Shown in pieces: positions 3,203 to 56,859 of a stretch of 64,000 bases of DNA. The notes under the pieces were generated by a model. That model worked only from the letters and a program-made list of their open reading frames with translations. It searched no databases and was not told the origin of the DNA. The stretch is from contig JASANH010000209.1 in assembly GCA_030248295.1 (NCBI GenBank), positions 868,001 through 932,000 on the forward strand. Reading direction: 5' to 3'. Within the stretch, counting starts at the first letter, position 1. Each line of letters opens with the position of its first letter. The stretch is from Mesodorylaimus sp. YZB2_4. Taxonomy: Eukaryota; Nematoda; Enoplea; Dorylaimida; Dorylaimidae. The translations under genes and the position numbers were made by a program.

Positions 3203-3745
3203 GCAGCATACCTCTTCGTTAGGCTCCCTCCATGCAGGCTCCGCGGTGCCACAAGCTTGCCTCAGTTTGGTGCCCGCAGGACACAGTCTTCCTGCCTGCT
3301 GGTATGTTTCGGTGAGCCAAGTACTTTAAGGGCCCCCATTAGGATTACTGTACATACTAGCCATGTGTGCAAGCATAGAGTCAGACAGCATGCCTCCTCA
3401 CTAGGCTCCCTCAAAGCAGGCTCCGAGGTGCCACAAGCTTGCCTCAGTTTGATGTCCGCAGGACACAGCCCCAGTTCATGTTCATCATGTTCATGTTTTA
3501 CCACATGACCAAACGCTTATGCGCACTCGAGGGTGAAGGGACACATTTTACACGAAATGAAATGCCAGACCGCGAGTCGAACACTCGCCTGAAACTGCGC
3601 ACCTGGCGTGAGAGGCAGACGCCCCTCAGGCCACGAGGCTGGTGGGTTAGGCGTCTGCCGGCGGCGGGCGGGGTCCCGCATGCCGGAATGCTTTGGTAGC
3701 CAAGCACTCATTAGGATCGCACTGGCCATGTGTGCAAGAGGCGTA
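3203..3745. repeat. Tandem duplication of about 183 bp, interrupted by a SINE
   Basis: Bases 3203-3286 and 3386-3470 are near copies (both contain GGTGCCACAAGCTTGCCTCAG). The downstream part of the unit at 3303-3375 (GAGCCAAGTACTTT...CATTAGGATTACTG...CCATGTGTGCAAG) recurs at about 3690-3742, after a minus-strand SINE. The second unit was therefore split by the SINE insertion. Confidence 0.7.
3477..3672 (-). mobile_element. tRNA-derived SINE, full copy (family B)
   Basis: Read on the minus strand this has a foldback head (GACGCCTAACCCACC...), a tRNA-like promoter with B-box GTGTTCGACTCGCGG, the body TTTCGTGTAAAATGTGTCCC and CTCGAGTGCGCATAAGCG, and an AAACATGAACATGA tail. The same order is seen on the plus strand at 18743-18925, so it is one transposed unit. 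Partial copies lie at 51715-51810, 57845-57965 and 62828-62885. Confidence 0.8.
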
Positions 3746-15996: not shown

Positions 15997-16859
15997 GCAG
16001 TACGTAAATGATGACACGGGTCAGTTATTTATGTGTACGACGTACATACATCGGCAAGGACGTCGTCCTTCGAATCATTATTTTTTACTGAACCTCATTT
16101 GTTACGTCGATGAGCGAGCTTATCAGAGACTATTTGTCCTATCGTGTCCTCTTGCGCCATTAAAAGATGGTTGCAGTCAGAGCATCGGACGGCAGAGAAG
16201 CTGGCATTCGAACAGTAGGACTGGTATATGCTGCTTACCCGACTGTGTGTGTCCGCTAGCTCGGGTCGTGGCCTAGCGGTCAAGGCGTCTGCCTCTCACA
16301 CTGACATGGGAGGGTTCGACTCCCGCCTGGGTACAAAATAAATGTCAAATTTGTGTTACTTAGCCCTCGATTGCTTGGCTATGGATAAAGTATGACAGGA
16401 CTCCGCCATTCTTCTGGCCGTCAGACAAACTAATAATGGCAGCAAAACCACCTGCAGCCAGCATATGCCAGCTGGAGGACCTGGGCTAATGACATAAAGC
16501 CCATCACTTTTTTCCTCATTTAAATTCTTGCACTCTATTGGTTTTTACGGCAAGAAAAATAGAGATTTATGCACAGATCTCTCCGTCTTGTGGATGCCAG
16601 GCGAGTGTCGAAAGGCGGCGAGTTTCTGTCGGAACAAGTTTTGCTTTAGATTTCTCAAGTAGACAAAGGGAGTGACGGAAAAGGATGTGTACACAAACTG
16701 CATTACCCATTTTTGTTTCACATACCAACTCACGATCAGTCTCCGCAAGCCGGATCTTGTCACAAAGTGTAGGCGTTGGAAAATGCTGGCACTCTTCACC
16801 TCGCCAATTTCAAAGGTGAAACAGTTGGGCCTAGTCAAAGTGTTACTTTCGCCAGGGCC
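15997..16859. other. Intergenic with a tRNA-like element
   Basis: Apart from the tRNA-like stretch at 16262-16335 nothing is recognised. The last 100 bases before 16860 are likely promoter/5' UTR of the hog gene. Confidence 0.4.
16262..16335 (+). repeat. tRNA-like sequence, probably SINE head
   Basis: It has an A-box-like GTGGCCTAGCGGTCAAGGCG, a CTCTCAC anticodon-loop-like segment and a B-box GGGTTCGACTCCC flanked by paired GGGAG/CTCCC. The ends do not form an acceptor stem, so this is not a working tRNA. The wording matches the head of SINE family B. Confidence 0.55.
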
Positions 16860-18440
16860 ATGTTTTCCAGCCGGATATGCTCACTACTTGTCTTCGGACT
16901 GCTCATCGCGACATCTCTTGCCGCACTCGACTGCTCATCCGAGGACTCGGGACAAGCCGACTTTGACACCCCGTCGTTGAGGGGCAAGAAATGCAAGGAC
17001 TTGGATCGCGACTCATGCATTTTCGGAGACGAAACCAAAAAGAAATGCCCGTGTAATTGCAAGAAATTGGTTTATCCAGATGAGTACAACAAACCTGAGA
17101 AAACCTCGGACTCAGGGAAGTCGGGGCAGGTAAGTCACCTGGACCAGTCGTTGTGGCCACAAAGGCTTGCTGAGCCCTCGGTCCCTTCTTTCTACTTATC
17201 GTAGGCTAAAACTTAGTTTTACCCTCAGCTGGAGTAACAGTTACAACGATGTCAGCTGCCTGCACTCCTCCTGTAGGGCTCGTAGTCTAGGGTGGCTGGG
17301 CCTGCGAAGTGCAACATTGCCTGAGGGTGTAAATAATCTGCATCACATTCGCTGCAGGTGGCGATCTGAGCTTGCATAGGCTACTATGATTTTGCAATCG
17401 GGCATGTTCGAATTTTATGGTATTCTTTGAGGGCGGTCAAGATTCGAAAGGGTTATGGCCTCAAGGAGTTCATGCGACAAACTTCAATTTCTGTTGCAGG
17501 GTAAGGGAAGCAGGGGACGAAAAGGACGAAGGTTCTGCTTCCACGCCGACGACACAGTGCTGACGGAGAGCGATCTGGTCATGAGCATGAGTCAGTTGGC
17601 GCGCAGTCCCGAGACGAAGGTGCTGACTGGAGAAGCCTACTCGAAGGTCAGATATTGGCTGCATGCCGAGCAGGAGGTAAGGCTTGTGCTCGTACTCTGG
17701 TCTTTTGGGCGCTTTTGCCGTTTGGTCCTCAGGCAAAGGCTGGTACAAAGCTGGCTTAGGCCCAATGTCAGCCCAAGCTAACTCATGTTGGGGACCAAAC
17801 AGCAATAGTGCTTTCTTAGAGTCAGGAGAACCTGCGATACTCAATCATGCGGCTAAGGACAAATGCACTTGTAAGACTCCCCCCCCCCCGTGACAAACCA
17901 AGACATGCTGTAAGAGTCCTTCAGAGGATCACTTGTTAATGACCCATTCCTGTGCAGACCACTGCCGACTTCCTCGTGCTCACCACTGCTTCTGGTAATC
18001 GCCTACGTATCTCGAGCGAGCACTTGATCTATCGATCGACCACCTGCCGCGCCGATCAGTCGGACACCGTGTTCGCCAGACGGGTCGAGCCTGGTCACTG
18101 TCTTCGCGTCCATGATGCCTCCAGTGGTGGCTTCCTTCTCAGCCCGGTCATCAGTGTGTCAGTGGAGATCGGGAAGGGCATCTACGCACCCATCACCGAG
18201 CAGGGCAGTATCGTGGTGAACGGCGTGCTGGCCTCGTCTTTCACCAACTACGAGGACGAGGCCTTGCAGAAGATGGCCTACGGATTGTTCCTGGACGCCC
18301 GCGATTCCATGAACTCGTTCAAAACCTTGAAATGGCTGGGCAATGTGCTATTTGGAGACAGGAGCACGGAGGCCGTGGCTCAAGTGCCCATCTTCGTGTA
18401 CAGTCTACTCGACCTGTCCGCTTATTTTGTGCACGCTTAG
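16860..18440 (+). CDS. Secreted hog (Hint) domain protein with a novel cysteine-rich N-terminus
   Basis: Exons 16860-17129, 17500-17676 and 17958-18440 give 309 residues. A signal peptide (MFSSRICSLLVFGLLIAT) leads into a short domain with six cysteines (GKKCKDLDRDSC, KKCPCNCKK), then a basic spacer and a Hint domain that starts at RRFCFHADDTVL; the Cys would be the self-splicing nucleophile. SKVRYWLHAE, the SSEHLIY His block and the end block GSIVVNGVLASSF match the autoprocessing half of Hedgehog. Hedgehog-type Hint domains cut their own N-terminal partner free and attach sterol. The N-terminal part is not the Hedgehog signal domain, so this is a hedgehog-related protein of the type known from nematodes (warthog/groundhog kind) but with a partner I do not recognise. 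Intron 2 holds a MITE. Confidence 0.8.
17708..17812. mobile_element. MITE family D, copy 2 (in hog gene intron 2)
   Basis: Terminal inverted repeats GGCGCTTTTGCCGTTTGGTC and, reversed, GCACTATTGCTGTTTGGTCC. The inner AGGCAAAGGCTGGTACAAAG matches the copy at 10841-11036. No clear target-site duplication. Confidence 0.7.
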
Positions 18441-18947
18441 GTGTGGTGCCATATTGGGCCCTGCAGGCTGTTTACAGTACACATATGCCTTGACACTTGT
18501 ATGTTATAAATAGCCAGCCTTATTTTTCATACACCTGCCCCGTTGTTGAGTCTGTGTTCATTGGCTTTCGAGCTCATGACAGCTGCTTTCGCCACTTATT
18601 TTTCCCTTCAACCACGAATTGTTGTGATAAAACTCACAAAACACCACGAAGAGAGGAATGCATAAAAAAGAACACACTTTCTACTGCCAGTGCAATTCCC
18701 GAAAATAGTCTGCTAACGACCCACCGGCCGGCCGGCCGGTAGGGACGCCTAACCCACCGGCCTCGTGGCCTGGTGGGTTAGGCGTCTGCCTCTCACGCCA
18801 GGTGCGCAGTTACGGGCGAGTGTTCGACTCGCGGGCCGGTAAATCATTTCGTGTAAAATGTGTCCCTTCACCCTCGAGTGCGCATAAGCGTTTGGTGATG
18901 TGATTAAACATGAACATGAACGATGAGAAGTGTGCCCGACCAGTTTG
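18441..18947. other. Intergenic, mostly a SINE
   Basis: Lies between the hog gene and the 3' end of GPCR 1. Apart from the SINE at 18743-18925 nothing is recognised. Confidence 0.5.
18743..18925 (+). mobile_element. tRNA-derived SINE, full copy (family B)
   Basis: Head GACGCCTAACCCACC is inverted against GGTGGGTTAGGCGTC thirteen bases later, followed by CTGCCTCTCACGCC, B-box GTGTTCGACTCGCGG, body GTGTAAAATGTGTCCCTTC and tail AAACATGAACATGAA. Same structure as the minus-strand copy at 3477-3672. Confidence 0.8.
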
Positions 18948-19931
18948 TCACTCGTGGCGTGCCCGTATGACCAATCTTTTCATCGATGATTTCGTGCCCT
19001 TGGGATCCAAACTCGTCACCTCCGTCTTCCGTCTGCCTTGTCTGCACATGCCCGAAATTCGTGCACTGCACGCCCCCACCGCCTCCAATACGAGTGCTCG
19101 GAACGGCTTGACGATGAAGAGGGTGAGCAGGGCGTCGAGTATGGCCTCGCACATGAACAAGGCTAGCACGATACTTAAAACGAATGGATAGCTCATTCTG
19201 AGTTGAGGGAACACGGCCAGCACACTCAGCACGGGCACATGGATGCACACGGGCAGCAGGGCGTGCAGGCCTATCAGATTCAGTAGCTGCGAGTCCGATG
19301 CCAGGCTACTGCTTCCAACCCCCGACGACGCCAGTCGCATTTGGTGATTGCGCAATGCCAGGAATAATTTGCAGTAACAATAGGCCAGAACGACGTAAGA
19401 TATTAAAAAATGTATTACTTTTGGCACGAGGCATTCGTGCTGGCCAGGATCGGCGTTCAAGAAGCAGCGTGCATCGGATCGATTTCGTTCCAAACACCCG
19501 GCGTGATAGTCGACCAGTGCGAAGGACACGGGCAGTGCCCAATTGAACGACAACAGCAACCCGATCGAATATCGATTATCGAACAGTCTCTTGTACCAGT
19601 TTTGTCTGACAACGGCCACGTAACGATTGACGGCCAGCAGGGGATGCGAGGTGACGGCCGCGCCCACGCTGACCACGCTCAGTGCCGGTGTCAACACGCA
19701 CATGCTATCGTAGGCCATGAGCCACGGCTGCGCGAGGAGTGCACCCTCAACGGCACACAATGCGTCGGCCAGGGCCAACGATCCGATGAACCACAGGTAG
19801 GAATTGTCACGCAGGTGTCGACGGCAAAGCACGATCACAACTATGTTGAGTGCCAGGGCTAGCAAGGCCAGCACACTGTTCAGGCAGTTAAACGGCCACG
19901 AGGGAATCGGCTGGCCAGTGCCGTTCTCCAT
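18948..19931 (-). CDS. Orphan rhodopsin-like GPCR 1 (intronless)
   Basis: A 327-residue single-exon seven-helix receptor in the plasma membrane. ATG at 19931 (MENGTGQP) is the first Met. TM1 ends VIVLCRRHLRDNSYLWF, TM2 has SLALADALC, TM3 ends HPLLAVNRYVAV with NRY in place of DRY, ECL2 holds paired cysteines, TM5 is followed by a long loop, and TM7 ends LDALLTLFIVKPFR with no NPxxY. A paralogue with the same oddities lies 8 kb away on the same strand at 27943-28878 (shared NSYxWFI, SHPLLAxNRYVAV, CxxPKxxHF, YCYxxxxLAL, QLLxLxxLHALxPxxxHxP). The altered G-protein switches suggest a divergent lineage-specific family. Ligand unknown. Confidence 0.8.
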   Translation of the reverse strand: MENGTGQPIPSWPFNCLNSVLALLALALNIVVIVLCRRHLRDNSYLWFIGSLALADALCAVEGALLAQPWLMAYDSMCVLTPALSVVSVGAAVTSHPLLAVNRYVAVVRQNWYKRLFDNRYSIGLLLSFNWALPVSFALVDYHAGCLERNRSDARCFLNADPGQHECLVPKVIHFLISYVVLAYCYCKLFLALRNHQMRLASSGVGSSSLASDSQLLNLIGLHALLPVCIHVPVLSVLAVFPQLRMSYPFVLSIVLALFMCEAILDALLTLFIVKPFRALVLEAVGACSARISGMCRQGRRKTEVTSLDPKGTKSSMKRLVIRARHE

Positions 19932-22900
19932 CGAGATGCTCCGCGGCCACTGCTTTGATAATCTCGAAGCTGACAACCCCTCAACACAACTCCCGTCGCA
20001 TCATTGGTCGTGCAGAGCTAGTTGAGGGGCTTCTTGATCGGTGCACTAACGAGGTGTCGACGGAAACCATCGTACATTCGTTAGCCAGTGGCTCAAATGG
20101 TGGCAGGTAAAAGGCGTGTGGCTGCGACGAAACCTAAAAAGAGTCAAGATAAGAAATATGCACCTGCTCAACTTAACGAGGCTAATGCGGGCAATAAGAA
20201 TGCGAATGCGGGGCCAATGGTGCCCTGTCAGGAAGGAGAGCAACAAAGAAGTAATCAACGAGCACAGGGTAAGGAACCGGATAAGGTTTTGCATAGGCGC
20301 AAGAATTGATTGCTGGCCGATTAGGGATGGCTAAGTACATATGCAAATGTAGGCTGAGAGTCTCGACCCAAGCCCGCAGACGTCCGAGTCGGACTGGGTG
20401 CCGTCGGATTATAATTGCGCAGCCACTGGTGCGAGGAGGCCGCACAAAATCATTAATGGCCTCGAGGCGGAAGAGCAGGCATTCAGCTGCAGCAAGAGAG
20501 GACTGCCCGCACGAGGCGGACAATCGTAAATGGGGAGCCAATGAAGGTGATAAAACTCTGTGAATTGCATAATCGATGTTATGTTCGTGCGGTGTCAATA
20601 CGCCCCCGCAGAGAAACAAGATTTGAAATGGTCTTTTGGGGAACAGTGATGGCAAAACGATTTTGCCAGGCTTCAAAGGCGCCTCGAGCTGCGTCTGTTC
20701 CCATCCATGCGCCTTGTGTCTCCCAGGGTTCTGTGTCATGTATTTCAAAACAAGCAGGCCTTTTTGGAATGCAAGTGGTGTTCACCAATTTGCCAGAGTG
20801 CGCGCATCAATTTTAGAAAGTTTCCAGGTCATGTGCGCATGTTTAAGGAATACCAGCAGCAGCAGGAGGTTACAAACAAAACATTAAGGTATTGCTGAAA
20901 CCAAGACTTAGGGGCATTCTTCCACACCAAGCATGTTAATCATTTCTGTGCCTGAGATATTGAGCCAGGGGTCTCGTGCCATGAGCGACGCTAAGCTGTG
21001 GCTGATGTGTGCTTGCTTCCAGCCGAAGCTACGGCCCCCCGCTCTCGCTGTTAGTGCAACGTTCTAGGAGGCACCGCTGGCCACGCTATAAGAGTAGATA
21101 CTTTACAACGCCATGGCCACTTTACACTTTACAGTGCTACTTTACAAAGACCCGTTAGTACTCTGGCAATAGCCATTCCGTTTCGTCACAGTGTCGATCA
21201 ATTGGTCGCAGCTGTGCTCTCACTCGTGCGCGACTTGCCTTGGAGAATGAGCATTCCGATGAAGATGCTTGGCAGCCAGGCCGTCTTCGACGTCGACGCC
21301 GAACCGAACGAGACCGTGCGAGAGTTGAAAGACAAGGTGCGAGCCCGACGGCCAGGCATCAAAAACGGCGAGCAAATCCACCTGCTTTATTCGGGCGAAT
21401 GGCTGGCCGATCAGCCGATATGAGTCTCGATGGTAGAATCTACGTGACCGGCAGGAAAACGCACGACGGGCAGGGCTGTGGCGACCATGAACATAAGAAG
21501 CAAGCGGGCGAGCGAGTGGCCAAGCCAGGAGGATCGAAAGGGTCAGAGCGGGAGGACGAGACGGACGGGTTCGGACTGGTTTAACAGGTGACAGACAAGT
21601 TCGAGAGAATTGGACATCAGAAACAGTCTGCCATCGTCAACTGGTTGTTCGTGGTCGAGAATCTGAGGCAGTTGGACACGCTGTTCAAAATAAGCTTCCC
21701 GGGGGCCACAGCCGAGGTCTACGCGGGGTGCGAAATGAAAAGGTGGCGGCCGGCGACATCCTCTTGCAAGAGTGATCAATCTTGACGTGATCGAATTTGG
21801 GTTGATCTTGCTTACTGCTGATGTACGGATTTGTGACATGCTATTGTCTTGTACTAGTATCTAGTAAAGAACGGGAAATCAATGGCTGTCGGTTTGTTGG
21901 CAATGCAGTGCGTGCACTGGGCCACGGTTCGCGCACCATGATGACGGGGGGGGCAGTAAACCTGTTGTCTCTCCCAACGAATTCTGTATTGACCGCAGTC
22001 AGATGCGGTGGAGGAGAATCCGACGGAGCAGGTGATTGCAGGAATGATCAACCTGAATGATTGGTGAGCTGACGTGCTTGTGAGATTCTATGCTCTCGTA
22101 CTAGCCGTAAAACAATAGTTGTCAGTTTGTTCGTAACGCAGCGAGTGGACTGCGCTGAGGTTCGCGCATCATGACGACAGTGAATCGTTGGGGAACCAGT
22201 GCCCCCCTTTCTACCCCCCCCCCCCCCCCCCGCTCCTTGGTGATTACCTGCAGATGAGCATCCAATGCGATACGATTTGGGGCAAGACGTGGGGAGAAAT
22301 GCTAAAAACAAGACAACTCGCTGGAGAATAGGCGAGATTCTCCAACTCGATGATGCAGTACTATGTCAGGTTGGACCTGCTTTCGGGAGTGCATCAGACA
22401 GAGGGGAGGGGTCCTCCTCCGCATCTGACAGAAGTCATCGCAGAATTCTTACCGAACCCGAAAATTAAAATGAAAAAGATGCTGGTTTATGAGCGAGCAG
22501 CGATGACTGGCTGACCATAGAACGCATTCTGTAAGGTCGAATCACGCCACATTCTTGCTGGGTATTTTTGAGTGGTAAAGATCGGGATGCGTCTGCCTTT
22601 GATGTTGTGATCATTATCGGGATGCAGGGCTATTATTCAAGGATTTCACTGGCGATATTGAGATGTTGAGGCATGGATCTGAGGCGGGGTGTAGCGTAAG
22701 AGACCTGCGCTGTGTCTGATGTGCGCTCACCAATCGAGTAGTTCATCACATGCTGTTTCATAGACGAGTGCCTTTTGGTGACTCTTCCAGCGCTCCCTGG
22801 TTTGGTCCACAGGTTCAATGACTCTAGAACGTTGATCCCGAAGAGCACTGTCTACTGAGGTGTGTCTGCCGAGAAGGCCTCCTTTATTTGCTCAGATTGC

Positions 22901-27942: not shown

Positions 27943-28878
27943 TCAAGCTGGTCTCAACGCGATCACATCGCATTGCTCGACCGACGGGTCTTTCCTGCAA
28001 ATCAACGGGCACACCGTCCTCAGATATTTCATGGCTGTTGTCCTGAATAATTTCACTGCCACCATAGTGAGCACTGCATCGAGCAGAGTCTCCAACAAAA
28101 ATAGGCTGAGCACGATATGCGACAATGCCGGGTAGTGGTATCGTATGTGGGGGAATAAGACGAGTACGGCGACGGCAGGGAAGTGGACGAAGATGGGGAC
28201 AAGGGCGTGCAGGATCATCAATCTGAGCAGCTGGTGGTCGGCAGTTACCCTGTTCGTGGGTGTTGCCGATTGAGCCATCAGGATTTGATGTTGTAGCAGG
28301 GCCAGAATGATTTGTGCGTAGCAGTAGGCCATAACAGCGTAGCACACACCAAAGTGTACTATTTTAGGAAGCAGGCACATGGTCTGCGAGGGCTGGGCGT
28401 TGAACAGGCATCGAAGACCCCCGTAGTCGCTCGCTCGATCCAAACAACCGTTCGTGACGTCCACGACCACAAAAGTGATGGGCACGCACCAGCTGACGAC
28501 CAGCATGGCGGCCACGGCGCGGGTATTTTCATAGATCGAGTCATATATGTGCGAATGTTTGACGGCCACGTATCGATTCAAGGCCAACAACGGGTGCGAT
28601 CCTATGGCCGACGGGACGGTGACTAAGGCCAGACTGGGCGCCAACTTGCACACGAACTCGTTGTCGGCCAATGATGGCTGAGCCACGGCCAACCCGCTGG
28701 CGGCCGATATTAAATCGGCCAGCGATAACGAGGCAATAAACCACATGTACGAATTCTGCCGCACATTTCGGACGCACAGCACAAGCACTAACATGTTGGC
28801 CAGCACGCTGAGCACGGCCAGGGTGCTGTTGCACGCCGGGGACACGAGCAGGGCCAACAGGCCAACAGTGCCGTTCAT
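27943..28878 (-). CDS. Orphan rhodopsin-like GPCR 2 (intronless paralogue)
   Basis: A 311-residue single-exon seven-helix receptor, paralogue of the gene at 18948-19931. ATG 28878 (MNGTVGLLALL) is the first true Met; an Asn-Gly-Thr glycosylation site follows it. TM1 ends VLVLCVRNVRQNSYMWF, TM2 has SLSLADLISA, TM3 ends HPLLALNRYVAVKHS (NRY for DRY), TM5 LPKIVHFGVCYAVMAYCY, TM6 lacks the usual CWxP, and TM7 reads LLDAVLTMVAVKLFR without NPxxY. The C-terminal tail is short with a CPLIC pair that could be acylated. Same strand and same intronless form as its paralogue point to a retro- or tandem duplication. Ligand unknown. Confidence 0.8.
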   Translation of the reverse strand: MNGTVGLLALLVSPACNSTLAVLSVLANMLVLVLCVRNVRQNSYMWFIASLSLADLISAASGLAVAQPSLADNEFVCKLAPSLALVTVPSAIGSHPLLALNRYVAVKHSHIYDSIYENTRAVAAMLVVSWCVPITFVVVDVTNGCLDRASDYGGLRCLFNAQPSQTMCLLPKIVHFGVCYAVMAYCYAQIILALLQHQILMAQSATPTNRVTADHQLLRLMILHALVPIFVHFPAVAVLVLFPHIRYHYPALSHIVLSLFLLETLLDAVLTMVAVKLFRTTAMKYLRTVCPLICRKDPSVEQCDVIALRPA

Positions 28879-29653
28879 GCTGATAACACCCACAGGACAC
28901 TGGACTAGGCGCAACTGGCTGTACGAACACCCGTGTCGGCCAGACCAGGGGTAGCCTCGTGGAAGCGAGGCAATAACGCGGATTGTACGCCAGTCTCATT
29001 ACGACAATTCCGAGAGCCGTGATGAAAAAGCCATCAAAGGAAAAATGAGCAGGGAACGGAAATGGGCGAGTGATGAATGCATGCCTGGACGGGCCGACGA
29101 GCAATAAGATAAACGGGATATTCGATCCCCGGGCATTACTTATTACTCACTCACTCACAATAAAAAGTCACGGGAAAGGAAATATTTGATTGATCAATAT
29201 GTGACAGCACGGTCTGACGAGATACGGGCGACATGAAAGGTGAGAGTGAGCAGGACACTGCCATCGTCTACATTTCACCCTGTGTTCATTTCGCCCTTAC
29301 GCCCTTGAGCTAGACAAGATTGCCCACTAAAATGGTCTTTGCTGCTTACTTTTCCAACCTTTCTAACCGTCAGATTGACAGTGGCTAGTGTGCACGTCAG
29401 TTTTCGACTCTTGGGTGCCTGGGTTTCGAACATGGGGCGTCTCACTGTTAATGTGACCCCAACGATTCTCGTTGTGTGACGGCCTCTATCTGATAACATC
29501 AGTGCGCTCGAGTCAGTTTTGAACCCTTGGGTGCCTGGGGCTCGAACCGGGGGCGTCTCACTGCAAATGTGACCAGCTCTTATTACATCGTCATTGCGTG
29601 ACGGGCCCTATCTAACACTGAACAGGCACAACTGCAATCCAACAGTGCACAGT
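28879..29653. other. Intergenic with a tRNA-like dimer repeat
   Basis: Apart from the dimer at 29395-29590 nothing is recognised. A small run of TCACTCACTCAC lies at 29145-29158. Confidence 0.5.
29395..29590 (-). repeat. Tandem pair of tRNA-related units
   Basis: Two copies of about 125 bases, each on the minus strand carrying TGAGACGCCCC then a B-box-like GGTTCGAGCCCC or TGTTCGAAACCC and CAGGCACCCAAG. A SINE or tRNA-pseudogene dimer is likely. Confidence 0.55.
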
Positions 29654-30625
29654 TCACCCTTTCCTGCCGTTGCCTCTGCCCGTCAGCGGGCTCGTGTCGG
29701 CGTGCACGGCCTTGTAGGATGGGTAGCCAGTCAAGGGTTCGATGTAGCTCCTCCAGTACGAGTGCACGATCCTCTTGATGCCCTTGTCCAACCTGCATTC
29801 GCCTTGGCCCGCGACCCCGCCGTCGGCTCGCAGTCCAGCCACCAGTGGTGTCCTGTACTTCATGCCCAGGGTGACTGCCCGCAGTTGAGCCAGGTATCGC
29901 CCCGAGAATCGTCCCCTGTTCTCGCTCATCCAAGCCAGTGTGCATCGGTCGTGCACACATTTCAGTTCGGCATCGCTGAGGGGAATGTCCACGAACTCGG
30001 CCAGCATACGAATACAGCTGGCCAAATCGGCCATCAGATCTTCGTAGTGCAACCAGAATACGTTGGGGTCGTGTCGATGGGGCCACCAACTGAGCATGTG
30101 GTCCCAGTACGAGTCCGTCTGAGAACCGTCCGGTCTGACCCCGAACGGTCTCAACAGGTCGTACGTGTCCCGCACATCCTCGTCGAAGCCCAGCTGGCGA
30201 TATCGACTCACTTTCTCCGACCACACCACGTCGAGGGGGTCGCGAACGATGACCACGTACCTGAGATGAGCATGGGTCAATTTGGGGGCATCTTCGAAGC
30301 ATTCGTGCGACTTGTAGAGACGGGGTTGATCGGCCGGTACCTGTTCACGGTTCAGATCGCACTCGAGTCTTTCGTAGTAAGGAGGGATATAGGGTACCAG
30401 CTGGTCCACGTCCACCGTGTCCCCTGCGCAGTACTCTTCGGGGGTGCCCTTGGTGCGTATCTCGTGCAGAATGTGCTGCAGCCAGGTCGTGCCCGTCCGA
30501 CGAGCCCCGCATATGATTATGTCCGTCGGGCGGGGACTGTACGGGCACGCGCGATCCAAAGGACTGGCGCCCCGATCGTAGAGAAATTTTTGTTGAAATC
30601 GTAATGAATCCTTGGCTGTGGACAT
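29654..30625 (-). CDS. Cytosolic-type sulfotransferase (intronless)
   Basis: A single-exon gene. ATG 30625 starts MSTAKDSLRFQQKFLYDRG; an in-frame ATG at 30652 would add nine residues. Transfers sulfate from PAPS to a small acceptor. The 5'-phosphosulfate loop reads GARRTGTTWLQHIL (usual PKSGTTW), LYKSHECF gives the KTH-like block, VIVRDPLDVVWS is the 3'-phosphate motif, and WLHYEDLMADL matches the FLxYEDxxxD block. The C-terminal RKGxxGxWK loop is not evident; GQGECRLDKGIKR sits there. Length (323 residues) is near the SULT norm of about 290-310. Substrate cannot be inferred. No neighbour suggests a pathway. Confidence 0.85.
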   Translation of the reverse strand: MSTAKDSLRFQQKFLYDRGASPLDRACPYSPRPTDIIICGARRTGTTWLQHILHEIRTKGTPEEYCAGDTVDVDQLVPYIPPYYERLECDLNREQVPADQPRLYKSHECFEDAPKLTHAHLRYVVIVRDPLDVVWSEKVSRYRQLGFDEDVRDTYDLLRPFGVRPDGSQTDSYWDHMLSWWPHRHDPNVFWLHYEDLMADLASCIRMLAEFVDIPLSDAELKCVHDRCTLAWMSENRGRFSGRYLAQLRAVTLGMKYRTPLVAGLRADGGVAGQGECRLDKGIKRIVHSYWRSYIEPLTGYPSYKAVHADTSPLTGRGNGRKG

Positions 30626-30652
30626 GACTAATAGACTAAGTCGTGTTTTCAT

Positions 30653-44623: not shown

Positions 44624-46255
44624 CTATGCCGTTGTGGACGGTATCGATTTTGACTCGTCCAAGTCGGGTAGCAGGGCCGCCGTTTCGGTGGTGTGCGGAG
44701 TCGAATTACCTCCTATCCGACGATTAATTGACGAGGCGGGTTTGCCGGTGCCGTCCGAATTGGTCAGCGACACGATGAGCATTGGTTGAGGATGGGGGTC
44801 CTGAACACCGCCCAGGTTGCTGTCCGCATCGGCGGCCGGCTGTCGCAGCTGATCGCGATTCGTGCGATTGCTCGATCGGCCACTCAACGTGCGCTTAATG
44901 CGCCCGAAACAGGGCATCAGCTCGGAGAATGCCGTACGGAAGGCCCCGTTCATGAACTGAAACGAGAACGTGCAGAGGAGGCGGGGCAGGGCAGGGGGGT
45001 TACCGAGTAGAGCAGGGGGTTCCACACGGTCGAGCTCATGGCCACGGCGTGACACAGGAGCGAGTAGAAATACATCTGGTCGTACACAAAGTCCGGCAGC
45101 CACTTGAGGTCGCGGAACAGGTTCATGGTCACTTGGGGACACCTGAAACGAGGGGTGCCAGTGGGGCGTGCGAGGCTGCCGGGCGGACTTACCATGAGCA
45201 GGCGAATATGAATACCTGAAGCGAGGGTGCATCAGACCAGGGGGGGGGGGTGTGGACTGATCACGACTTACCATGGCAATAAGCATTCGATTAGTTCTGC
45301 GTTTGCGCCTGAGGACGGCCTGCTGCCTGGCCTCGGCTGTGGCAGGACCCGTGGAAGTGGCTCTGGCGGCGGCCGGGTGCTGACCAGCGGCCACTTGGGC
45401 GGCCGGTGAGCGCAAGTTGGTGGATTCGGTGGTGCTGCGGGCGTCGAATTTGTTCTTTTTGCTGGCATTGATGGCCTTTTTCATTTTGGCGCTGCGGGCC
45501 AGCCGAAGCCAAATATGCGAGTAGCAGAAGGCGATGACAAGCAGGGGCACGAGGAACTGCAGGATGAGCACGAACGTGCCGTATATCTTCTGCACGCGTT
45601 CTGAGGGCCAGGCCTCCTCGCAAAAATATCCGCAGAAGATGATGGCGGGTTCGAGGGGGGCTGGCGACCCCGAGGGGTCGGTCGAGTTGGGCGGTAGGAA
45701 GGGTTCGATGGGGCGGTCGGGGCCGTAGTAGTACTTATAGTGAGCGACCATGGGCAGGCACAGGCCGGCTGCCAGGGCCCATATGCTGACGATCATGGGC
45801 ACGGCCTGGGCGCGTTGGATGGGCCTGCGGGTGGGGAATATGATGAGGATGTACCTGTCGATGGCCACGGCCATGAGGGTGAAGGTGGAGATGAGGATGC
45901 TCATGCCCTGGAACAGGGGGAACGCGTAGCACAGCACGGGCCCGAACAGCCAATTCTTCTTGATGAATGTGAAGGGCGTGATGGGCAGCGAGGTCAGGCA
46001 GACGACCACGTCCGAGCACGACAGGCTGACTATGAAGAAGTTGCGCACAGTCTGCAGGGCCGGGTATCTCCACACGGACGCGATGACCAGCCCGTTGCCC
46101 AGCAGGCCGGCCAGGAATATGAGCGAGTAGAATATGCCGAATATGGCCCGAACGTGCGCCCTGGCCGTTTCGTCGTTGTATCGATGATAAAAGTAGTCGA
46201 CCACGTCGTCGCACCGGTTCGCCACCGTCCGGTAGGGCTCGATCGTGGCGGCCAT
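44624..46255 (-). CDS. Neuropeptide F/Y-type GPCR
   Basis: Exons 46255-45272, 45215-45193 (only 23 bases), 45142-45004 and 44956-44624, all in phase, 492 residues. A plasma-membrane peptide receptor: TM1 GLLGNGLVIASVW, TM2 NFFIVSLSCSDVVVCL, TM3 with LMAVAIDRYILIIFP (DRY), ECL2 FCEEAWPSERVQKIYG as in NPF/NPY receptors, TM5 ending VIAFCYSHIWLRL, a long Ala/Ser-rich third loop, then RRKRRTNRMLIAMVFIFA with CSWCPQ in TM6 and TM7 WNPLLYS (NPxxY). The cytoplasmic tail is long. ATG 46255 follows an acceptor at 46275; sequence upstream to 46504 is open but looks like 5' UTR. NPF-like rather than sNPF or tachykinin is a judgement from ECL2. Confidence 0.82.
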   Translation of the reverse strand: MAATIEPYRTVANRCDDVVDYFYHRYNDETARAHVRAIFGIFYSLIFLAGLLGNGLVIASVWRYPALQTVRNFFIVSLSCSDVVVCLTSLPITPFTFIKKNWLFGPVLCYAFPLFQGMSILISTFTLMAVAIDRYILIIFPTRRPIQRAQAVPMIVSIWALAAGLCLPMVAHYKYYYGPDRPIEPFLPPNSTDPSGSPAPLEPAIIFCGYFCEEAWPSERVQKIYGTFVLILQFLVPLLVIAFCYSHIWLRLARSAKMKKAINASKKNKFDARSTTESTNLRSPAAQVAAGQHPAAARATSTGPATAEARQQAVLRRKRRTNRMLIAMVSRDQSTPPPPGLMHPRFRYSYSPAHGKSARQPRTPHWHPSFQVSPSDHEPVPRPQVAAGLCVRPDVFLLAPVSRRGHELDRVEPPALLGNPPALPRLLCTFSFQFMNGAFRTAFSELMPCFGRIKRTLSGRSSNRTNRDQLRQPAADADSNLGGVQDPHPQPMLIVSLTNSDGTGKPASSINRRIGGNSTPHTTETAALLPDLDESKSIPSTTA

Positions 46256-48100
46256 CGGCTCGATCGCTCGATACCTAAAGAGGCAGTGAAGCGGTAGGAG
46301 AGGGCTAGGCGTCGGCGAGAGGTCGATTGGCGAGGTGCGAAGTGCGCGGGAGGAAGGGCGCCATTGTTGTCCCACACGCCTAGCTAGCAGTGAAATATTT
46401 ATTCGCCCCTCCGAATCGATCAGCCACGGCTCGTTACTCGGATCAACCGAGCGGCCCCCCAAACCTCTCCGATTTCTCACACGCAACACACTCAGAGCAA
46501 ACACGCCTAACGCCAGAAATGTTTAATGAAGGCCGAGCCGACTGAATAAACTTCATAACCCGCCCTCCCGGGCCCGAATTTGGCAGCCGTCGTAAGCCCG
46601 GCCTAGTGCACGGGACTTGTGCCTCCGTCGGGGCAGGTAGGCGCCATCCGACACCCGTCCTCAATCCCGGCCGCCCGTCGCACCACCCGGCCCTCATAAA
46701 GCCTAGAGGTCGCGAGCGGGTGCCGACGGGGGCGGCCGTAATGGACCCCATCGCACACAATTATCACCTAATCGTCCGACACCTAACAACCGCCCCGCAA
46801 CGAGGCGTGATTAGGGAACAGGCGTAATTGCTGCTCCGCCACCATTGATCGGGGACCGTCACTGGTTATCAGCACGACGCCATCCACCCCATGCCCCCAT
46901 AAAAGTCTGTCAAAAGTCGTCACCAGCCCCATCGCTGTCATTGGTACCCCATCAACTCCCATCAGCAAGAACGGCCTGCCACCCCGCCTCCATTACTGGC
47001 GCTGGCATCGAGGCCAATGCCGCTGCCTGACATGACCGGCACTTGGAAACGGGGTCCGCAGGGAGCGCGAGCACCAGGCATCGAGGACATGTACACGTTG
47101 CCCTGGGCCCGGTACAAATTAACCGAATGATTTGCTCCTTCAAGCCCGTCCAGTCCAGTGCGCAGCACGACAACGCAAAAACTATGCTGTCCTGAAAGAG
47201 TCGAGCCACTGCCCCAACTTGTCGCGGACAGTTGGGCCGACTATACGAGATAAAGAAGACGATACGAGTGCCCCCTACAGCAGGGACAACTGAGCCAACT
47301 GAGCGCATAAGTGCAGAACAACCACCTAAAGCCAGGCACTGCTCATCTCTGGGCGCACCGAAGCACAAAGAGCACCTGCACCTCATGGAAGGCACAAATC
47401 AGCGTCATAAGTCATCATTGAGGAAACACCCACACATTTAGACGCCGTTGCCTCCCCCTCTTTGAGAAGGCGTCACATTTTGTACACAGCAAAAACTGAT
47501 CACTGATCTTATCACCAACTGATCACACCATCCACTCGCATAGTTACTTCTGCTCGCTCATTGTCAGCCTCGCTGCATACTGTAACGCGGTTTAGGCTTT
47601 CAACCAATTTTGCTGGTGCAAATTTTCGCAGTTTCTGGCTCACCATCAGTCACAGTGATATGCGTATGAACCACCCGCTGATACTCGGGAATGCGTGGAA
47701 ATTTTCAACCTTTCAAAGAACACATTAGCTTCCGCTTAGTACCTGCTTCCTGCACCAACCATAAATGCGGTAGGAAGTGAATGGCTATTTCAAATTGGTA
47801 TAAAGAATTCATTTACTTGCCAAGGTGCTCGGAAGAAATTGCGAAGCGACTGAAAAATGTTAAACTGCCATCTTGGATCTCAGGCTGGTGACGCTCACAA
47901 TCATTGGGTTTTGAAGGCGTTTGATAAGCTTCTGATCAGCAGAACTTTACGATAGGAGCCGCGATGGTTCAATTGGTGCCGCATTGCTTGGGCCAACAAT
48001 CCCGACTGAGAGGCCGCAGTTCTGTTCCAGCTGAGGACGACGATTTAGTAAGTCTGTCGCTGAGCATGCTGTGAAAAAGTGATTAAAACGTCAAGTCACA
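46256..48100. other. Gene-poor, includes one half of a diverged duplication
   Basis: 46740-47280 is related to 49435-50090. Minus-strand frames (for example 46952-47395) are open but share no convincing protein pattern between the two copies. 47450-48060 shows nothing. Confidence 0.45.
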
Positions 48101-55619: not shown

Positions 55620-56859
55620 TCGCGTGTGCCATAAAGAACGACCCTCTAATGTATCGTCTTCTACCAGCCTTACTATGCAAGTTATCGCAAAATATTTTAT
55701 ACCATTGTGTTCAGCATTCAATTCTGTGTCAGCTTTACCTATTTTACTTGCCAATATATTGACCATTCGTTTTCAAAACTCGATATAGTCGAGAGTACCA
55801 ACTTTCACAGCTTTTTTTCTCAATATCCAAACAAATTCGTTTTATGGCGAGCTTCAATTCATCTTTCAGAGTCGCTTTCGACTTTACTCGATCCCAATTC
55901 ATTGCACGAGCGAGTTCTTCCCAAACAGAGTAGTCTAATGGATTGAAATCGGGACTGTTAGGAGGCCAACGCTTAGCTTCAATAAAATCAGGAAAACGAT
56001 CCTTGCACCATTTTTGTGAGTCTTTATGGGTATGAGCCCTCGCACCATCTTGTTGAAAGAGCCAGTTGTTCCCAAAGGTCTTGTTGCCATATTTCTCAGC
56101 CGCTGGCAACACCATTTCCATATAAACAGAATGATTGGCCGTGCCCTTATCCAAGATGACTAGTGGTGTGACACCCTCAGTGCATGCGCCCAACCACACC
56201 ATAATTTTTTGAGGGAACTTCTGCTTAGGCTTGATTCCAGTCTTCTCATTGGCTGCAGCACGGTTTGGAGCCCATATGCGATCATTTTGGGCGTTGTAAA
56301 TTCCGTCCAGATCGAACATCTTCTCATCAGAAAACAGTATGCGCATGGAATCTGATTTTCTGCACCGATTTCGGACCCACCTTGAAAACGTCTTGCGTTT
56401 TACCTTATGGTTGTTGGGAAGAAATGGATCAACAATTTTTCGATAGGGGGTCAATCCGAGATCATTTTTCAATATTCGGCGAATCGTTGTTTTCGATGAT
56501 TTGAGCTCGCTAGCCAATTTCGCAGTGGTCACTCCTTTTTTCCTCCGCAGACGACCCTTCACTTTTTGAATCATTCCCTTCGTGCGAACACTGCGCGGAC
56601 GACCAGGCGAATTGTGCAGCTCGATAGTGCCAGTTTCGGCGATCATTTTGCACCATCGCTTTACTGTTTTCAGACTCACGACTCCATCTAATTCTTCGCA
56701 CAATATGACAAAGGAGCTGTACAATATGACGGACATTAAGGACTGCCTGATGCAGAATTGAATGCTCTATCTGCCTGTGTTAGTGTCTAATTTACAACGC
56801 GACTGCTTCCGAAGAGAACTAGCCATTTCTGTGAGGGTCATTCTTTATGGCGCACCCGA
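55620..56859 (-). mobile_element. Complete maT-like (Tc1/mariner superfamily) transposon
   Basis: Terminal inverted repeats of about 27 bases: left TCGCGTGTGCCATAAAGAAC, right (reversed) TCGGGTGCGCCATAAAGAAT, each continuing GACCCTC. Both ends abut TA (55618-55619 and 56860-56861), the target of this superfamily. The 1240-base element holds one intact transposase. Confidence 0.88.
55744..56736 (-). CDS. Transposase, maT-like DD37D type, intact
   Basis: An uninterrupted frame of 330 residues from ATG 56736. An N-terminal helix-turn-helix (VSLKTVKRWCKMIAETGTIE, GRPRS) and a second one (KLASELKSSKTTIRRIL) bind the ends; the catalytic part has LFSDEKMFDLDG, WLFQQDGARAHT and WPPNSPDFNPLDYSVWEEL. 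The second and third acidic residues are 37 residues apart and the third is Asp, which is the DD37D signature of maT. No stop or frameshift is present and the terminal repeats are well kept, so recent activity is likely. Cuts and pastes its own element in the nucleus. Confidence 0.9.
   Translation of the reverse strand: MSVILYSSFVILCEELDGVVSLKTVKRWCKMIAETGTIELHNSPGRPRSVRTKGMIQKVKGRLRRKKGVTTAKLASELKSSKTTIRRILKNDLGLTPYRKIVDPFLPNNHKVKRKTFSRWVRNRCRKSDSMRILFSDEKMFDLDGIYNAQNDRIWAPNRAAANEKTGIKPKQKFPQKIMVWLGACTEGVTPLVILDKGTANHSVYMEMVLPAAEKYGNKTFGNNWLFQQDGARAHTHKDSQKWCKDRFPDFIEAKRWPPNSPDFNPLDYSVWEELARAMNWDRVKSKATLKDELKLAIKRICLDIEKKSCESWYSRLYRVLKTNGQYIGK

Follow-up and report, generated by a model that had tools for sequence, protein, structure and literature searches.

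A gene of the early-branching nematode Mesodorylaimus sp. YZB2_4 couples a putatively secreted domain with six cysteines to a Hint domain, and we regard it, with a probability of about two in three, as a member of the Nema-Hogs and most likely an Enop-hog, whose product would be a self-released, probably lipid-tailed peptide of the matrix or of short-range signalling. The open gene model, the order of the domains, the retained Cys and His of the Hint domain, its central Cys pair and the related cargo in two further sequences, the locus L012 of the same genome and the metagenome protein P0006, were observed directly. The window that holds the gene is a stretch of 64,000 nucleotides (GCA_030248295.1, contig JASANH010000209.1, 868,001-932,000, forward strand) from a 145-Mb assembly of 1067 contigs. 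A literature search, for which subscription journals were mostly out of reach, returned no title on the gene.

Gene model and Hint domain

The gene model is real, and the gene looks intact. On the + strand, an ATG at 16860 opens three exons of 270, 177 and 483 bp, which encode 309 amino acids up to a stop ending at 18440; the two introns (370 and 281 bp) have GT..AG borders and join the exons in phase 0. An earlier reading, made from the letters of the window without database searches (hereafter the sequence-only reading), had given the same coordinates, 16860..18440, and the same 309-residue model, and exon translation and intron borders showed both to be right. The join of exons 1 and 2 is supported by a phase-0 intron at the same position in L012, and the join of exons 2 and 3 by the alignment to the single Hint exon of L012, which crosses it without a gap. 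A promoter and terminator scan returned bacterial-type patterns and was uninformative.

The protein runs from a putative signal peptide through the six-Cys cargo, a basic linker and the Hint domain to a C-terminal tail (Table 1). The whole linker (residues 71-102) is a basic Gly/Ser/Lys stretch with a pI of 10.1 and a charge of +4.7. Cleavage at the end of the putative signal peptide (residue 22) and ahead of Cys103 would give a predicted cargo of 80 residues (~8.9 kDa). The C-terminal 65 residues (245-309) occupy the place of the sterol-recognition region of Hedgehog.

Table 1. Features of the six-Cys Hog gene (positions in the window)
Feature	Positions	Strand	Basis
Exon 1, aa 1-90: signal peptide, six-Cys cargo, start of linker; phase-0 donor CAG|GTAAGT	16860..17129	+	Translation; L012 intron matches in position and phase
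Putative signal peptide, aa 1-22, MFSSRICSLLVFGLLIATSLAA	16860..16925	+	Hydrophobic stretch, by eye in translation
Six-Cys cargo domain, aa 23-70, Cys 25, 45, 53, 63, 65, 67	16926..17069	+	Translation; similarity to L012 and P0006
Linker part 1, aa 71-90	17070..17129	+	Translation
Exon 2, aa 91-149	17500..17676	+	Translation
Linker part 2, basic, aa 91-102, GKGSRGRKGRRF	17500..17535	+	Translation
Cys103, predicted nucleophile; scissile bond Phe102-Cys103	17536..17538	+	Aligned to C1 (C258) of fly Hint
His145 at the place of the fly general base D303 (D46)	17662..17664	+	PDB match and Hint alignment
Exon 3, aa 150-309 and stop	17958..18440	+	Translation
Hint domain, ~aa 102-244 (Pfam match to aa 260), split by intron 2 (17677-17957)	17533..18242	+	Pfam; exon-3 partial model closest to 6tyy/1at0
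Block-B motif SSEH, Ser168 ... His171	18012..18023	+	Hint alignment
Cys179, first Cys of the nematode-Hog central pair	18045..18047	+	Feature as defined in PMC2362128
Cys197, second Cys of the central pair	18099..18101	+	Hint alignment
Ser243 replacing the motif-J Cys (C143/C400)	18237..18239	+	Hint alignment
C-terminal adduct-recognition-like region, aa 245-309, 65 residues, named by position	18243..18437	+	Helices modelled only at low confidence

Pfam found a single family in the full protein, Hint (PF01079, aa 102-260, E 9.2e-33, 114.1 bits against a cut-off of 29.7), and the Hog (Hint) architecture proposed by the sequence-only reading was thus borne out. The PDB sequence search retrieved fly Hedgehog (6tyy, E 9.8e-12; 1at0, 1.9e-10; 6td6, 3e-10) and Sonic hedgehog (7e2i, 3.4e-5). 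The likeness to Hedgehog, represented by the fly Hint 1at0 and its D46H mutant 6tyy, consists of Hint homology, the Cys nucleophile and a block B of the TxxH type; the window gene differs in that it has no Hedge domain and adds a central Cys pair. Compared with the fly Hint, Cys103 and the block-B His171 are retained, whereas D46 (D303) is replaced by His, T69 by Ser and the motif-J Cys, C143 (C400), by Ser, and the residue at -1 is Phe, not Gly. The domain had been called canonical, which is correct for the nucleophile and the block-B His and too strong in view of these four positions. The central pair is formed by Cys179, which lies one residue later than in L012, and Cys197. PMC2362128 gives a pair of conserved central Cys as a mark of nematode Hh-related Hogs, one that some fish Hedgehogs share. 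Classed by its residues, the Hint of the window gene is of the nematode 'Nema-Hog' type. A partial model of the exon-3 Hint, folded together with the proteins P0001-P0005 and consulted for the Hint half alone, had a mean pLDDT of 54, with 76 of its 160 residues below 50; its nearest solved structures were 6tyy (E 1.2e-4) and 1at0 (E 5.6e-4), with a TM of 0.42 over 88 columns.

Searching the protein collection with the full window protein alone gave no match at E<=0.01 (1436 candidates), whereas a six-row profile retrieved five proteins from it. Three of these are long enough to show kinship with the locus L013, and two are shorter. Since the profile succeeds where the single query stays blank, absence from this collection means little.

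The six-cysteine cargo and its relatives

The sequence-only reading had described the cargo as a secreted six-Cys domain without likeness to the signal half of Hedgehog, and this description stood. Six Cys lie in residues 23-70, behind a start that is hydrophobic by eye; HH_signal matched elsewhere in the genome (contig C139), and Pfam at E<=10 gave no family for either the window cargo or P0006. The PDB sequence search with a two-row cargo profile was likewise empty at E<=10. Three PDB matches of P0006 (E 0.16-1.8) and a CDtoxinA match of L012 (E 0.064, below the cut-off), which lay over its Hint, were taken as chance. An AlphaFold model of the cargo, made without an alignment, reached a pLDDT of 49, was unusable and was kept out of the fold search.

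To find relatives, we used the cargo exons as genome queries at E<=10. The window exon retrieved itself and, weakly, an exon on contig C20 just upstream of the Hint of L012 (E 0.032, 33% identity), while the L012 exon retrieved itself and the window exon only (E 0.05, 32%). Neither query found a cargo-only copy in the genome at this threshold, and more distant copies are possible. The alignment of cargo and linker after the signal peptide scored 82 between the two genes, a value reached by none of 5000 full shuffles (highest 62) and by none of 5000 shuffles with fixed Cys, for which the highest score was 80 and the margin is small. In both genes an intron separates cargo and Hint, with a length of 57 bp and phase 0 in L012 and of 370 bp in the window gene.

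A second relative came from a profile of the window and L012 cargo exons, signal peptides included: P0006 was its sole match in the large collection at E<=1 (E 3.4e-10, among three candidates), with a score that must owe most to the L012 row. P0006 and the L012 cargo are identical at 39 of 47 positions; P0006 and the window cargo agree at 14 of 40 (E 1e-4 as a single comparison), and overall the window cargo is 29-33% identical to the two. As a genome query, P0006 retrieved the L012 locus only, in two pieces, and did not match the window exon at E<=10. The annotated tail of P0006 matches the Hint exon of L012 in another frame, with a score of 93 that was reached by none of 2000 shuffles, as against 1371 and 486 of 2000 for the other two frames. 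This is expected if a gene caller that ignores introns read on across this one as far as the Hint exon, and the order of cargo, intron and Hint therefore exists in a second sequence. P0006 presumably comes from another nematode.

Five of the six Cys and the patterns GK-x-C, D-x-C-x-F-x-DE and C-x3-C recur in all three cargoes. The one displaced Cys belongs to the end cluster, which reads C-x-C-x-C in the window gene and C-C-x2-C in L012 and P0006. Going by these comparisons, the L012 branch of the cargo is the conserved one and the window gene is a diverged paralogue. L012 and P0006 share with the window gene a related six-Cys cargo with an intron and then a Hint exon behind it, and L012 also a phase-0 intron, a basic linker and a Hint that is the closest to that of the window gene (41% identity). 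L012 differs in keeping Thr, the motif-J Cys and Gly at -1, and the window gene has an extra intron within the Hint.

The start of the cargo may resemble ShK-like repeats in marine protists. We considered whether an ShK-type domain, a channel-binding or protease-associated fold, had been fused to the Hint. The cargo has six Cys and is putatively secreted, ShK is abundant in the genome (at least 149 matches at E<=10, four of them in the window, with 150 of 167 candidates scored), and when the window cargo was aligned with ShK domains of the window, one low score was reached by 40 of 500 shuffles with fixed Cys. In the other nine comparisons, however, 47 to 435 of 500 shuffles did as well, neither cargo exon is among the 149 matches listed from those 150 scored candidates, direct Pfam scans of the cargo were empty, and hhalign against five ShK domains of the window gave a probability of 0.8%. 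In addition, the last three Cys of these five domains are spaced C-x3-C-x2-C or C-x3-C-x3-C, unlike the C-x-C-x-C of the window cargo and the C-C-x2-C of L012. On Pfam, hhalign, shuffles and Cys spacing, we rejected membership of the cargo in this family and consider an ShK origin extremely improbable.

Hedgehog-related genes of the genome

The genome carries one true Hedgehog gene. At E<=1, HH_signal has two matches only, both on C139 upstream of the Hint L011, and together they cover both halves of the domain. Patched-family domains have 28 matches at E<=1e-10, and the nematode cuticle collagen domain Col_cuticle_N has 133. For Ground-like (PF04155), a genome search at E<=1, with no nematode among its control genomes, came back empty, as did the scan of the window protein at E<=10. 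The combination of cuticle collagens, a single Hedgehog and no Ground-like is close to the pattern reported for Enoplea in PMC2362128. On the 133 collagen matches we also dropped an early guess of a Lophohog or spiralian origin of the gene. Lophohog, as described in PMC9695228, resembles the window gene in having a unique N-terminal domain on a Hog and differs in belonging to other phyla (molluscs and annelids).

The genome was found to contain 40 matches to PF01079, of which 37 exceed the cut-off; once exon fragments of one gene are joined, there are ~37 loci. C. elegans has lost Hedgehog; a true Hedgehog together with ~37 Hint loci in one nematode is thus a state of the ligand system unlike that of C. 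elegans. Counting the window gene, 31 of the 37 loci were read; L014 and L042, whose frames are broken in the stretch read by introns or decay, were left out, and the alignment comprised 29 genome Hints, one fly Hint and P0001-P0004. The block-B His is present in all 29 genome Hints, and the nucleophile Cys in all 22 rows that cover its position, seven others beginning after it. At the D46 position there are 23 His, three Asp, two Phe and one Ser, with Phe, Ser and Asp partly in rows that are hard to align; at T69, 15 Thr and 14 Ser; at C143, 25 Cys, three Ser (the window gene among them) and one gap. The true Hedgehog, L011, has His at the D46 position and Lys at -1. With 23 of 29 Hints, L011 included, carrying His in place of Asp303, the D303H mutant of the laboratory has a widespread natural version here. 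The central Cys pair occurs in 14 of the 29, including the window gene; L019 has a single Cys, and 14, including Hedgehog, have none.

L031 and L043 were also left out of the phylogenetic tree, which was built with IQ-TREE on 32 rows. The window gene and L012 formed a clade with high support (100/98), and this pair grouped with quahog-like rows (L013, P0001-P0004) and a clade of L024, L025, L027, L028 and L040 (94/91). A split with support of 87/79, which is not strong, separated all 17 rows that have the central Cys pair from the other 15, Hedgehog among them; 13 of the 14 genome Hints with the pair were in the tree, all on the same side. The end branch of the window gene (1.11) is long compared with that of L012 (0.53).

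Several other Hogs of the genome fall into recognisable groups. The quahog-like start pattern C..L/Y..Y....C.....C is common to L013, L024, L025, L028, L040 and L043 and suggests that quahog has expanded in this genome. In L016, L032, L033, L034 and L039, a hydrophobic start is followed by ~20-40 residues (by eye, in the same frame) that are Gly-rich or Pro/Ala-rich and then by the Hint; these genes resemble the Xiphinema short-hogs with 15-25 residues described in PMC2362128. L015, L017, L018, L020 and L031 are closely similar Hog copies on one contig (C71), most with Pro-rich sequence upstream, and the Hints of L017 and L018 are identical over the part compared; judged by this similarity, the cluster is a recent local expansion. 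On contig C186, two Hint matches of equal E-value and bit score (108671-109117 and 116811-117257) lie 8 kb apart on opposite strands, possibly an inverted duplication.

Among known systems, the window gene comes closest to Enop-hog. Table 1 of PMC2362128 (Buerglin 2008) lists Enop-hog (two in Trichinella, one in Xiphinema), T-hog and short-hog, and the text describes six conserved Cys upstream of the Hog in the two Trichinella Enop-hogs (Xhog1 and Xhog2), with similarity to Xiphinema Xhog5. From that description, the likeness lies in an Hh-related gene of a nematode lineage with a true Hedgehog and without Ground-like, in the number of Cys, six, upstream of a Nema-Hog Hint, and perhaps in a Hint clade apart from quahog, the window/L012 clade standing beside the quahog-like group in a tree with no Enop-hog row. 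The window gene is probably an Enop-hog member, an assignment set by description (Cys number, lineage and Hint clade) rather than by sequences. The claim of a new signal candidate was accordingly too strong: six-Cys Hogs (Enop-hog) of Enoplea appear in the 2008 account, and L012 and P0006 carry related cargo. As a gene family, this is most likely an addition to the one described then and not a new kind of system.

Quahog (qua-1) shares the Nema-Hog Hint and forms the neighbouring clade; the cargo of P0003 is much longer, with another Cys pattern. We take L013 and P0001-P0004 to be probable quahogs from their pattern. The Warthog, Groundhog and Ground-like proteins of C. elegans also have a secreted Cys-rich cargo, on a Nema-Hog Hint in several members. 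The sequence-only reading had named kinship with the ground-like or warthog families as evidence against its proposal, and the comparisons pointed to neither. For Ground-like and Groundhog, the difference is the absence of PF04155 from the genome matches at E<=1 in the search described above. For Warthog, it is one of Cys number only, with six Cys in residues 23-102 of the window protein against the eight of the Wart domain given in PMC7919330, which also reports that some Trichinella species have one Wart domain.

Predicted processing and surroundings of the gene

We propose that the precursor enters the ER, where the ~48-residue six-Cys domain would form disulfides. The Hint would turn the Phe102-Cys103 peptide bond into a thioester through Cys103 with His171, and a hydroxylated lipid, a sterol or similar, activated by His145 instead of Asp, would attack the thioester. 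A peptide of ~80 residues, basic in its tail and carrying a lipid at the C-terminus, would be freed, and would most likely stay at the apical surface or in the cuticle matrix in a structural or short-range signalling role. An N-palmitate as in Hedgehog is not expected, as the first Cys of the cargo (Cys25) is not at the predicted N-terminus. The scheme follows that given for Hint in PMC9163320: Cys attacks the preceding carbonyl, and transfer to cholesterol is aided by Asp303. In the same source, fly Hint with D303H has unaltered structure, pKa and efficiency and an added activity on bent sterols, and by analogy with this engineered protein, lipid transfer in the window protein is plausible. 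Cholesterol addition by nematode Hogs is not settled in PMC2362128, and Buerglin named the region ARR for this reason. The statement of the sequence-only reading that self-cleavage and lipid attachment are to be expected was therefore too strong. Our proposal for the role draws on PMC11304992, in which some Hh-related proteins of C. elegans are apparently precuticle or cuticle components and some apparently signal.

Several observations count against this explanation, namely three changed Hint positions, Phe at -1 and the long branch, as well as the diverged cargo with its displaced sixth Cys, the narrow margin of the Cys-fixed shuffles, the failure of P0006 to retrieve the window exon and the low pLDDT of the models. 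There are two alternatives. A proprotein convertase might free the cargo at RGRKGRR just before Phe102, or the Hint might carry out plain hydrolysis, with no lipid added and the Hint serving as a folding or sorting module. A basic stretch does stand immediately before the Hint in both the window gene and L012 (GGKKKRG), the changes D to H and C to S and the Phe at -1 could weaken the transfer step, and fly D303A, according to PMC9163320, is still cleaved with thiol without completing cholesterol transfer. However, a basic tail near a lipid is equally plausible for binding to membrane or matrix, the D303H Hint of that source is active in vitro, and the genome rows retain the nucleophile Cys in 22/22 that cover it (7 do not) and the block-B His in 29/29; we regard release without lipid as unlikely. 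Alternatively, the Hint of the window gene might no longer be catalytic, with the uncut protein in use or the gene decaying, a reading to which the lost motif-J Cys, the Thr to Ser change, the Phe at -1, the long branch and the diverged cargo would all be congenial. Yet all 309 codons form an open frame, the introns have GT..AG borders, Cys103 and His171 are retained, and neither substitution is private to the window gene, Ser standing for Thr in 14 and for Cys in 3 of 29 Hints with the window gene included. We judge a dead Hint quite improbable.

If release with a lipid by a His303 Hint is true, the six-Cys peptide would offer a small testable substrate for asking whether nematode Hogs attach a lipid and, if they do, which one, and the base-swap mutant made in the laboratory would have a natural equivalent. 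A broader idea is put forward tentatively, with the odds against it: the six-Cys peptide may be the founder of a family in nematodes whose members attach their own lipid and act as short-range ligands or organise the matrix, and of which the L012/P0006 branch would be nearly unchanged; with their His303 Hints, these animals may attach other or several sterols and not just cholesterol.

Copies of a tRNA-like repeat flank the gene (16268-16345 and ~18779-18796), and another lies at 3608-3625 (-). The repeat has at least 41 matches in the genome, with 40 of 964 first-look candidates scored, and is probably a SINE; ARAGORN called no tRNA in the window. Elsewhere in the window, the segment 4647-8950 (+) holds an astacin exon (PF01400) with several ShK domains behind it and is likely one secreted astacin/ShK protease gene. 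Two single-frame rhodopsin-family receptors (18948-20000 and 27946-28995, both -) look like paralogues by eye, and a third 7tm_1 ORF lies at 44627-46522 (-). A single-frame sulfotransferase (PF00685) occupies 29657-30652 (-), and a DDE transposase ORF (PF13358), which we take to be Tc1/mariner-like, lies at 55747-56766 (-).
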